64,000 nt of DNA from Desulfovibrio sp. (GTDB taxonomy: Bacteria; Desulfobacterota; Desulfovibrionia; Desulfovibrionales; Desulfovibrionaceae): assembly GCA_030145055.1 (NCBI GenBank), contig JAQYWK010000001.1:930001-994000 (forward strand), given 5' to 3'. The notes under the pieces were generated by a model. The model saw only the letters and a program-made list of their open reading frames with translations. It was not told where the DNA came from and made no database searches. This document shows positions 1,923 through 5,610 of this stretch, one piece after another. The translations under genes and the position numbers were made by a program. Within the stretch, counting starts at the first letter, position 1. Every line of letters begins with the position of its first letter.

Positions 1923-1957
1923 AAAAGGCCGTTTCAATTAAGAAACGGCCTTTTTTT
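1923..1957 (+). terminator. Rho-independent terminator of the CBS-ACT gene
   Basis: A 13-bp stem (AAAAGGCCGTTTC and its complement) with a 6-base loop is followed by a T run, 25 bases after the stop. The opposite strand has only four T after the stem, so it acts mainly on the plus strand. Confidence 0.9.
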
Positions 1958-1996: not shown

Positions 1997-2308
1997 TTAG
2001 CCGCAGCTTCCTGAGCAGGAACCGCATTCTCCGCCGCCGCCCATATCCATATCGGAAGTGATAACAAATCCGCTATAGCTAAGGTCAACCTTGAAAGGGC
2101 TTCCCTGTCCATTCAGTTCTTTGTCTATTAGAAAAGTAAAACCAGCAGCATCTATATTTTCGTCATTATCTTTTGACTCATCCAGAGCCAATGCCAAGCG
2201 GGGGCCTGCTCAGCCGCCGGTTGCGAGATAGATGCGTATAGGGGTTTTTTCTTTATCTGCAAAGTAGCTTTCTAACTGCTTGCTAGCAGCTTCTGTGATT
2301 TCAACCAT
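1997..2308 (-). CDS. IscA/HesB-like selenoprotein (in-frame TGA = Sec33)
   Basis: Read from the ATG at 2308 the frame runs 103 residues if the TGA at 2212-2210 is decoded as selenocysteine. Sec33 sits in the sequence TGG-Sec-AGPR, exactly where A-type Fe-S carriers of the IscA/HesB family have their first conserved Cys. The C-terminal tail carries Cys95, Cys98 and Cys102 instead of the usual CGC pair. Frame, length and family similarity continue on both sides of the TGA, so this is recoding and not a nonsense mutation. HesB-like selenoproteins are known in selenoproteome surveys, and selD lies 9.4 kb away. An SD (GGAGGGA) precedes the ATG. A standard gene caller starts after the TGA at a TTG (2197) and loses the N-terminus. 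A role in Fe-S or redox chemistry is inferred. Confidence 0.9.
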
Positions 2309-2338
2309 TATTCCCTCCTTATAGGACATGTCTATCTA

Positions 2339-2367
2339 AAAATAAGTTTTCTATTGAGTTTTGTCAA
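2339..2367 (-). promoter_or_regulatory. Sigma70-type promoter of the IscA-like selenoprotein gene
   Basis: On the minus strand a perfect -35 TTGACA (2367-2362) is followed after 17 bases by TATTTT (2344-2339). The predicted transcript starts near 2332, giving a leader of about 24 bases before the ATG at 2308. Confidence 0.6.
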
Positions 2368-2501: not shown

Positions 2502-3056
2502 ATGAAAACCAAAGATATCATCTTGGCAACAGCCAAGGAAATGATCTCTCAGGTGGGTTTCCATAGAGCCACAACTTCGAATTTAGCGAAGACTGCAAAC
2601 ATCTCTGAAGGCACTATATATAGACACTTTGAAAGTAAGGAAGATATTCTTCTTCATATCCTTGCCGCACTTGAAGAACAGTTCTCTTATTTTATTGAGA
2701 GTGTTCGTCAGAAGCTTGATAAAGATCAATGTACTCTCGAAATGATTATGGTAGATTATTTTGCATTTGTTGAAGAGAATGAAGTTGATGTTAAGATTAT
2801 GCTTTCTACTTATGGACTGCTTGATTCTTCAAAACGCCTTATGGCTATTTTTTTGAAGAATCTTGAACTGATCCTACAGGATTGCATTAAGCTCGGAATT
2901 AAAAAAGGCAACGTAAAGGATGTTCCAGTAGAAGAAAATGCAACAGTGGTAATGACGATCATTTTCGGTTTGACCAGATTGCATTTGTACTGGCCTAACG
3001 AAACAGATGTTCGCACTGAAGCTATTGAATTCTGCCGTCGCAGTCTCCTCAAATAG
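2502..3056 (+). CDS. TetR/AcrR-family transcriptional regulator
   Basis: A 184-residue one-component regulator. The N-terminus carries the TetR helix-turn-helix (about 22-50, including GFHRATTSNLAKTA and the YRHFESKEDIL signature). The remaining helical region (about 60-184) is the ligand-binding and dimer domain, whose ligand is not predictable. The gene is divergent from the selenoprotein gene, with palindromes in the shared upstream region, and convergent with copA. Since copA's own promoter is 2.5 kb away at the other end, a link with copper is not supported by position. Confidence 0.9.
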   Translation: MKTKDIILATAKEMISQVGFHRATTSNLAKTANISEGTIYRHFESKEDILLHILAALEEQFSYFIESVRQKLDKDQCTLEMIMVDYFAFVEENEVDVKIMLSTYGLLDSSKRLMAIFLKNLELILQDCIKLGIKKGNVKDVPVEENATVVMTIIFGLTRLHLYWPNETDVRTEAIEFCRRSLLK

Positions 3057-3123: not shown

Positions 3124-5610
3124 TTAATCTTTGATTGAGAAAAACTTAAGCCGTAATGCGTTTGTTACTACGGTGACTGAACTGAGCGACATGGCTGCCG
3201 CCGCGAACATGGGAGAAAGAGTCGGGCCTTCGAATACATAAAGCACCCCTGCGGCAACAGGAATTCCAAGTATATTAAATGCGAATGCCCAGAATAAATT
3301 CTGCTTAATATTACGAACTGTCGCACGACTGAGCGAAATAGCTGTCAACACGCCCGTTAAATCTCCCTTCATAAGCACTATATCTCCGGATTCGATGGCA
3401 ACGTCTATCCCTGTGCCCATAGCTATGCCCAAATCTGCCGAGGCAAGAGCCGGAGCATCATTAATGCCATCTCCGATCATAGCAACTTTGCGTCCTAAAG
3501 CTTTTTCTTTGTTAACTACTTCCGCTTTACGATCCGGCATGACCTGCGCGACCACTTCATCTATCCCTGCGCTGGCCGCAATGGTTAGGGCAACCTTTTC
3601 ATTATCGCCTGTCAGCATAATTGTTTTTACACCGAGTGCGTGGAGTTTTTTTATTGTAGCGGGAGCTTCTTCTTTTATCTTATCTGCGATAGCTAGAATT
3701 CCGACCAGCTTGCCGTTCTTTGCTATGTAAAGCGGACTTTGTCCTGCCGCCTTAAAACGAGTGGCGGCATCCTGCGCATCTTTATTGTTAAGATCTCCAA
3801 CAAAATTTCGATTTAAATATTCTTGGTTGCCGAGCAGCATAGAATGTCCACCTGTCTTGGTAGCAATGCCGAGACCCGCCACCGCATTAAATGAAGTCGT
3901 CTCCGGTAGAGTCAGTGCTGCATCTTTGGCTGCGCGCAAAACCGCCCTTGCTAAAGGATGTTCAGATTGTTTTTCCGCAGAGGCGGCAAGGGCCAGAACT
4001 TCATCCTCACTGTTTCCTGCCGCGATGAAAGAGTCTGCAAGCTCAGGCTGGCCGTAGGTTAGAGTTCCTGTCTTATCAAAGATCATAGTGTCTATTTTGC
4101 CAGCAGTCTCGAGAGCTTCACCTGATTTTACAAGGACACCAAGCTGTGCTCCGCGCCCGGTTCCGACCATGATGGCTGTGGGCGTGGCAAGCCCCATGGC
4201 ACAAGGGCAGGCAATAACCATTACACTGATGAAAATGCGTAGCGCAAAAGAGAACGGCTCATCACTAAATGCGTACCAGCAAAGGCCGGAAATAACTGCA
4301 ATAGCCATGACCGCCGGTACAAAGTAAAAACTTACCGTATCAGCGAGGCTGGATATGGGAGCTTTCGATCCTTGTGCTTCCTGTACTAGCTTGATGATGC
4401 GTGAAAGAACCGTATTCTCTCCAACATTTTTCACGCGGACTTTAAGCGCTCCGCCTCCGGTATTAACTGTGCCTCCGGCAACATCATCACCGATTGTTTT
4501 GGATACAGGCATACTTTCGCCAGTGAGCATTGACTCATCAATTTCGGAATGCCCTTCGTAAACGGCGCCGTCAGCGCCTACTCTGTCACCGGGGCGGATT
4601 AAAATATTGTCACCTGGGCCAATTTCTTCGATGGGAGTAATAATCTGTTCACCATTTTCCAGTAGAATAGCTTTAGCCGGAGTCAGATCCATAAGTTTTT
4701 CAATGGCTTCAGATGTTCGTGATTTAGCGCGGCCCTCTTGAAATTTTCCAAGAGAAATAAGGGCGATGATCGTGGCGGCTGATTCAAAATAAAGGTCCAT
4801 AGCCTTCATTTGAGGATCAATACCTATCGCTATTTCAATAAGATTCCAAACTGAATAAACGAAAGCCGCAGATGTTCCTACCGCGATCAGAGAATCCATA
4901 TTGGGTGCACCGCGCATAAGAGTCGGGAACCCGTGGATATAAAAATCTTTACCGAACCACATGACTGGCAGAGTCAAAAACAGTTGGATAAGAGCAAACC
5001 CAAGCGGTGAGTGCTGCGGGCTGATTATGTCAGGTAGTGGCATGCTCACCATATGGCCCATGGTGATTATGAGCAGCGGAATGGTAAACGCCAGCGCATT
5101 GATCAGCCGCTGTTTCATTAAAGCTAGCTTTTCCTCATTTTGTTTGCGCCTGGCATCGAAATTTTTGTGTGCGTCTTTTGTCTCTTCAATTTTACCGGCT
5201 TCGAAACCAATATCTGCGATTGTCTGCCTGATGGACCGAAGTGAAATGATAGCGGAATTAAATTTTATTGTAGCGGACTCGCCCGGCAAGTTCACCGCAG
5301 CCTTAATGATCCCATCAGTCATATTTAAAACGCGCTCAAGCCTTGAGGAACACGCTGAGCAGGTCATACCGGATATGGGAAGCAGAACTTCGGTTCCTTC
5401 AACTTTTTCGGTAGCTTCAAAACCTGCCATTTTAACGGATTCCATGACTTTTTCGGAGGAAGTTATAGCCTCATTAAAATTTACAACCAAGGATTCAGTA
5501 GCCAGATTAACGCTGGCGTGCTTAACTCCATCCATGTTACCGATGACCCGTTCAAGGCGTGTTGAACAGGCTGAACAGGTCATTCCCTTGATTTCAAAAA
5601 GAGCATTCAT
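3124..5610 (-). CDS. copA: Copper-translocating P1B-type ATPase CopA
   Basis: An 828-residue inner-membrane ATPase that exports Cu(I). It has two N-terminal heavy-metal-binding domains, each with MTCSAC (Cys12/Cys15 and Cys84/Cys87), then membrane segments, the actuator TGES motif, the intramembrane CPC site (in ACPCAMGLATP), the phosphorylation motif DKTGTLT, an HP motif (SEHPLA), and MIGDGINDAPA in the hinge. CPC plus two CxxC domains is the standard Cu(I)-ATPase pattern. Length is normal. It is monocistronic, divergent from pyrR across 139 bases and convergent with tetR. No clear copper-regulator operator was recognised upstream. Confidence 0.97.
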   Translation of the reverse strand: MNALFEIKGMTCSACSTRLERVIGNMDGVKHASVNLATESLVVNFNEAITSSEKVMESVKMAGFEATEKVEGTEVLLPISGMTCSACSSRLERVLNMTDGIIKAAVNLPGESATIKFNSAIISLRSIRQTIADIGFEAGKIEETKDAHKNFDARRKQNEEKLALMKQRLINALAFTIPLLIITMGHMVSMPLPDIISPQHSPLGFALIQLFLTLPVMWFGKDFYIHGFPTLMRGAPNMDSLIAVGTSAAFVYSVWNLIEIAIGIDPQMKAMDLYFESAATIIALISLGKFQEGRAKSRTSEAIEKLMDLTPAKAILLENGEQIITPIEEIGPGDNILIRPGDRVGADGAVYEGHSEIDESMLTGESMPVSKTIGDDVAGGTVNTGGGALKVRVKNVGENTVLSRIIKLVQEAQGSKAPISSLADTVSFYFVPAVMAIAVISGLCWYAFSDEPFSFALRIFISVMVIACPCAMGLATPTAIMVGTGRGAQLGVLVKSGEALETAGKIDTMIFDKTGTLTYGQPELADSFIAAGNSEDEVLALAASAEKQSEHPLARAVLRAAKDAALTLPETTSFNAVAGLGIATKTGGHSMLLGNQEYLNRNFVGDLNNKDAQDAATRFKAAGQSPLYIAKNGKLVGILAIADKIKEEAPATIKKLHALGVKTIMLTGDNEKVALTIAASAGIDEVVAQVMPDRKAEVVNKEKALGRKVAMIGDGINDAPALASADLGIAMGTGIDVAIESGDIVLMKGDLTGVLTAISLSRATVRNIKQNLFWAFAFNILGIPVAAGVLYVFEGPTLSPMFAAAAMSLSSVTVVTNALRLKFFSIKD

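Follow-up and report, generated by a model that had tools for sequence, protein, structure and literature searches.

HesB-like selenoproteins have been on record since 2005-2006 (PMC1088965, PMC1794560), in agreement with the original prediction for the locus described here, which placed them in bacterial surveys. Passages of PMC1794560 report 11 HesB-like selenoproteins, with 2 changes of selenocysteine (Sec) to cysteine (Cys) in the family, and its Table 3 includes members in D. vulgaris and D. desulfuricans; a table in PMC1914089 gives DVU_1382 as a TGA-containing gene of the HesB family. Parts of PMC9312934 and PMC1088965 both list the family, which PMC9312934 and PMC13188914 file under TIGR01911 (HesB_rel_seleno); a table in the latter assigns it the motif UxGP, and Sec-to-Cys substitutions are termed rare there. 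A passage of PMC11097638 (2024) describes a methanogen member, identified by mutagenesis and 75Se labelling, whose function is called unclear, and in the part of PMC2682760 available the word selenocysteine occurred only among the references. The gene studied here lies in 64,000 nucleotides (nt) of Desulfovibrio sp. (GCA_030145055.1, JAQYWK010000001.1, positions 930,001 to 994,000; the window). In this gene an internal UGA is very probably translated as Sec, and the product is most likely an A-type carrier of iron-sulfur (Fe-S) clusters or iron with a selenol ligand. The protein is an already catalogued type, known in Desulfovibrio; to call it hidden or unusual was an overstatement, since members from this lineage are published and the NCBI curated library holds a model for them, NF038090. 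Interest rests in the adjacent Sec/Cys gene pair found among its relatives, which is less familiar than the TGA itself.

The gene and its signals, including a hairpin resembling a selenocysteine insertion sequence (SECIS), are as follows.

1997-2308, minus strand: hesB-like selenoprotein gene, 103 residues with Sec33 (translation; NF038090, 117.3 bits; PF01521, 32.1 bits)
2210-2212, minus strand: in-frame TGA, codon 33, with the Sec reading (translation; Sec/Cys alignment column)
2173-2191, minus strand: SECIS-like apical hairpin TTGGCTC-TGGAT-GAGTCAA, 21-39 nt past the T of the TGA
2314-2319, minus strand: Shine-Dalgarno sequence AGGAGG, 5 nt ahead of the full-length ATG (sequence)
2339-2367, minus strand: sigma-70-like promoter TTGACA-17-TATTTT (consensus match)

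The frame ran from the ATG at 2308-2306 to the TAA at 1999-1997 with the TGA counted as a residue. This TGA (2212-2210) was the only one in frame, and it stood where the IscA/HesB fold has its first conserved Cys. The frame proposed on both sides of it held over all 103 codons. Under translation table 11 the only open reading frame listed at the locus was a 66-residue, TTG-started piece (1997-2197), and the first 37 residues were lost, as had been foreseen. The Cys at 95, 98 and 102 were located correctly in the original prediction; their CxxCxxxC arrangement was a minority form (16/76 Sec rows), and 75/76 Sec rows had 3-5 tail Cys at varied spacings. The predicted promoter and Shine-Dalgarno sequence were also found ahead of the full-length start, with AGGAGG and TTGACA unchanged in 13/13 aligned rows of the window's genus, its own among them.

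The full-length product exceeded the curated cut-off of NF038090 (IscA_HesB_Se; 85 bits) over positions 1-101 of 101 and the gathering cut-off of PF01521 (Fe-S_biosyn; 26.3 bits), and no material difference set it apart from the former model, of which it is a member. With TIGR01911 it shared the UxGP motif, in which Sec replaces the first Cys, but its score (40.0 bits) was below that model's cut-off of 66.35. HesB family, TGA-encoded Sec and Desulfovibrio origin are common to the window gene and to published selenoproteins such as DVU_1382, to which it is probably orthologous, judging from family and lineage.

Decoding of the internal UGA

The genome of the window (7 contigs, listed completeness 99.99%) contained tRNA-Sec (80.1 bits, C3:400264-400353), SelB (374.7 bits, C2:115664-117553) and SelA (607.6 bits, C2:119067-120428), all over their cut-offs. 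In the alignment column of the TGA, the 147 unique family rows showed TGA in 76, Cys in 58 and another residue in 13. These rows came from 151 matches of at least 60 bits, merged where the first 300 bases were identical; the duplicates L001, L065 and L066 and the window itself were left out (the same stretches are in L079 and L080). Both grounds on which the original prediction had agreed to fall, namely the lack of any homologue that aligns through the TGA and has Sec or Cys there, and a genome devoid of selB or tRNA-Sec, thus turned out in its favour.

Because Rfam gave no matches within the window at gathering thresholds, the SECIS-like hairpin was assessed through homologues. All five pairs of the stem GGCTC/GAG(C/T)C, with the loop TGGAY, formed in 76/76 Sec rows (own included) vs. 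1/56 Cys rows, 2 of the 58 Cys rows being left out of the scoring for lack of C-x-G in the scanned stretch. Each single core pair formed in 71/71 unique Sec sequences, whereas among the 56 Cys sequences the number varied from 8 to 47. The codons GCT, CTG, GAY (GAT in 60, GAC in 11) and GAG were invariant across the same 71 sequences and variable in the Cys sequences (for instance, GCC 33, GCG 9 and GCT 8; GAA 22 and GAG 21). One sequence carried a double change in the stem, with A-T replacing G-C, and equal stability of the window's apical hairpin was reached in 43/5000 synonymous shuffles. Folding of the window's own sequence at this site spoke less favourably for this reading: over the first 42 nt together, 472/5000 synonymous shuffles were as stable, and single-sequence RNA folding of the stretch was weak (z -1.47, with 18/200 shuffles equal or better).

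Matches to NF038090 occurred in 264/288 genomes of the same bacterial family (241 over the cut-off) and SelB over its cut-off in 232/288. TGA copies went together with selB, with exceptions: 201 genomes had both, 16 TGA without selB, 16 selB without TGA and 28 neither (Fisher P = 1.7e-15 over 261 genomes, uncorrected for relatedness, the TGA position being verified only in aligned loci). Outside this table are the 24 genomes without a family match and G124, G128 and G133, and G089 was entered as non-TGA despite a 26-bit TGA match. Completeness was 89% or less in 12 of the 16 TGA genomes without selB; in the other four, selA was present in three and not in G269. The search for selA covered genomes at 95% completeness or more (4/16 TGA and 15/28 non-TGA genomes without selB), and none of those 15 non-TGA genomes had it.

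Sec and Cys copies of the gene

A second family member was present in 52/76 Sec loci, on the same strand in 52/52. A Cys copy occurred in 50 of the 76, which is 50/63 of those outside the window's genus. This copy stood downstream of the Sec gene in 39 of them and upstream in 11, separated from it by 64-742 bases, with another family copy inside the widest gap. Loci were the top scorers of the family census plus hand-picked additions, and therefore 52/76 and 50/63 are biased rates; loci L107-L166 stood outside the alignment. In the 70 genomes of one other genus (g18), counted by eye, 36/43 TGA genomes carried the TGA copy and a non-TGA copy no more than 1 kb apart on one contig. Paired Sec/Cys genes were found in 0/13 loci of the window's own genus. 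Its genome carried a Cys relative away from the Sec gene (C7:226404-226709; L080 5378-5710), divergent, with ACSGS for GGUAGP and 72.6 bits to NF038090, below the cut-off, and in four other listed genomes of the genus the non-TGA match was likewise distant.

On a tree of 144 rows, built on 109 columns and with many forks open, the Sec label required 14 changes, at least seven of them forced by starred branches. In a set of 47 rows, whose loci were chosen after inspection of that tree, a single clade for the 24 Sec rows was rejected (p-AU 3.3e-6), and a single origin for the Sec form was discarded on this result. The non-monophyly suggests gene conversion, or duplication followed by repeated switches between Sec and Cys; no clear break was visible in the identity profiles of 15 pairs from the same locus, and the two processes were indistinguishable by them. 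A Cys copy with an intact SECIS-like stem (L020, 2148-2465) hints at a Sec-to-Cys change or conversion in that one case, perhaps a recent one. Ten loci of another genus (g39: L037, L039, L040, L041, L042, L043, L044, L046, L048 and L105) had a third tandem copy whose Sec/Cys site was occupied by Glu, Asp or Ala, and the CGGxC tail was retained in those inspected, L048 not being among them.

Literature passages on HesB-like selenoproteins, supplements not covered, contained no description of the adjacent Sec/Cys pair, a negative that does not extend to PMC9312934 and PMC8211752, which were not checked for the word tandem; nor did the passages on the family mention non-monophyly of its Sec forms.

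Proposed function and alternatives

The predicted structure of the product was an IscA-like fold, the fold of A-type carriers. Together with the NF038090 score, the Sec-decoding genes and the hairpin of the Sec rows, it supported the assignment to IscA/HesB-like selenoproteins, as did the homologues with Cys or Sec at the TGA column. We consider it probable that this NF038090-type protein holds or passes iron or Fe-S through Sec33 and its Cys tail. UGA-33 would be decoded through SelA, SelB, tRNA-Sec and the downstream hairpin, a step for which comparison among relatives gives strong support. By fold and position Sec33 would correspond to IscA's first cluster-ligating Cys, and together with the flexible tail (C95, C98 and C102) it would hold iron or an Fe-S cluster, which would then be handed to client proteins. 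The same task may be shared or backed up by the Cys paralogue, which is distant here and adjacent to the Sec gene at many loci in other genera.

A further suggestion, which we put forward tentatively and regard as rather doubtful, is that in this bacterial family the Sec and Cys HesB-like proteins form a working pair, encoded by neighbouring genes whose repeated renewal involves duplication or gene conversion together with switches between Sec and Cys. The two might, for example, build a mixed selenol/thiol dimer on one cluster, or replace each other as isoforms in a selenium-dependent manner. The bacterial family offers a natural test, with adjacent Sec and Cys versions and with selA/selB-less lineages holding only Cys copies, to which the window's genome adds the absence of a canonical A-type carrier among its PF01521 matches. 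If the pair does work together, it would reveal the benefit of selenium in iron-sulfur or iron handling.

The alternative that survives best, unlikely as it appears, takes the same selenoprotein to be a thiol/selenol redox protein or a metal/selenide handler instead of an Fe-S carrier, with the glycine- and Cys-rich tail as a resolving or metal-binding arm. Several results favour it. Scores of the product were far under the equivalog cut-offs of the A-type carriers (23.3 vs. 150.6 bits for IscA, TIGR02011; 22.3 vs. 136.2 for SufA, TIGR01997; 28.5 vs. 117 for ErpA, NF010147), from which it differs by Sec for the first Cys and by another Cys-rich tail, and DsrR is another protein with the same fold. 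The tail of IscA is CxC, whereas C.C was present in 26/76 Sec-row tails. A passage of the 2026 review PMC13188914 expects redox roles for most uncharacterised selenoproteins. Against the redox alternative, Sec sits at a cluster-ligand position of the IscA fold and the named neighbours included no recognisable redox partner.

Two neighbouring genes bear on a second alternative.

58-714: hypB
735-1082: hypA

Their proximity could place the selenoprotein in hydrogenase maturation, which is highly improbable: a CBS-ACT gene on the opposite strand intervenes, and among the 46 loci spanning at least 5 kb that were used for neighbour counts hypA was near in 6 and hypB in 5, all of the window's genus, so that this link was ruled out. 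Practically no credence is left for an ordinary stop or defect (pseudogene) yielding the 66-residue piece, for which the table 11 listing and the weak single-sequence folding would speak, because the TGA recurs at one column in 76 rows, the hairpin is retained in Sec rows and not in Cys relatives, the Shine-Dalgarno sequence is kept before the full-length ATG, and the piece by itself scored 57.3 bits to NF038090, under the cut-off.

Other neighbours and local elements

Three further features flank the selenoprotein gene.

1923-1954, minus strand: terminator-like hairpin 3' of the selenoprotein gene
2381-2401, no strand assigned: candidate operator in the space separating the selenoprotein gene from the TetR gene, an inverted repeat ACCTTAA-7-TTAAGGT
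2502-3056, plus strand: divergent TetR-family regulator (PF00440, 59.7 bits)

A divergent TetR gene was located upstream in 17/46 loci, 13 of them from the window's genus (own included). The upstream neighbour in 13/46 was a phosphoribosyltransferase gene, which we take to be PyrR-like, and a CBS-ACT gene lay downstream in 13/46, in the window's genus only. The repeat may serve as the operator by which TetR would control the selenoprotein gene. Its perfect arms were seen in the window and L070 only, and a 7-bp inverted repeat can arise by chance; a looser form (ACC..A.G to GGTCAAC) was present in 11/12 genus rows, L067 being the exception, and in 0/4 of the other loci carrying the TetR neighbour. 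Positions 3124-5610 of the window encode a heavy-metal P-type ATPase containing two HMA stretches, and such a gene was near the selenoprotein gene in 7/46 loci, all of the same genus.
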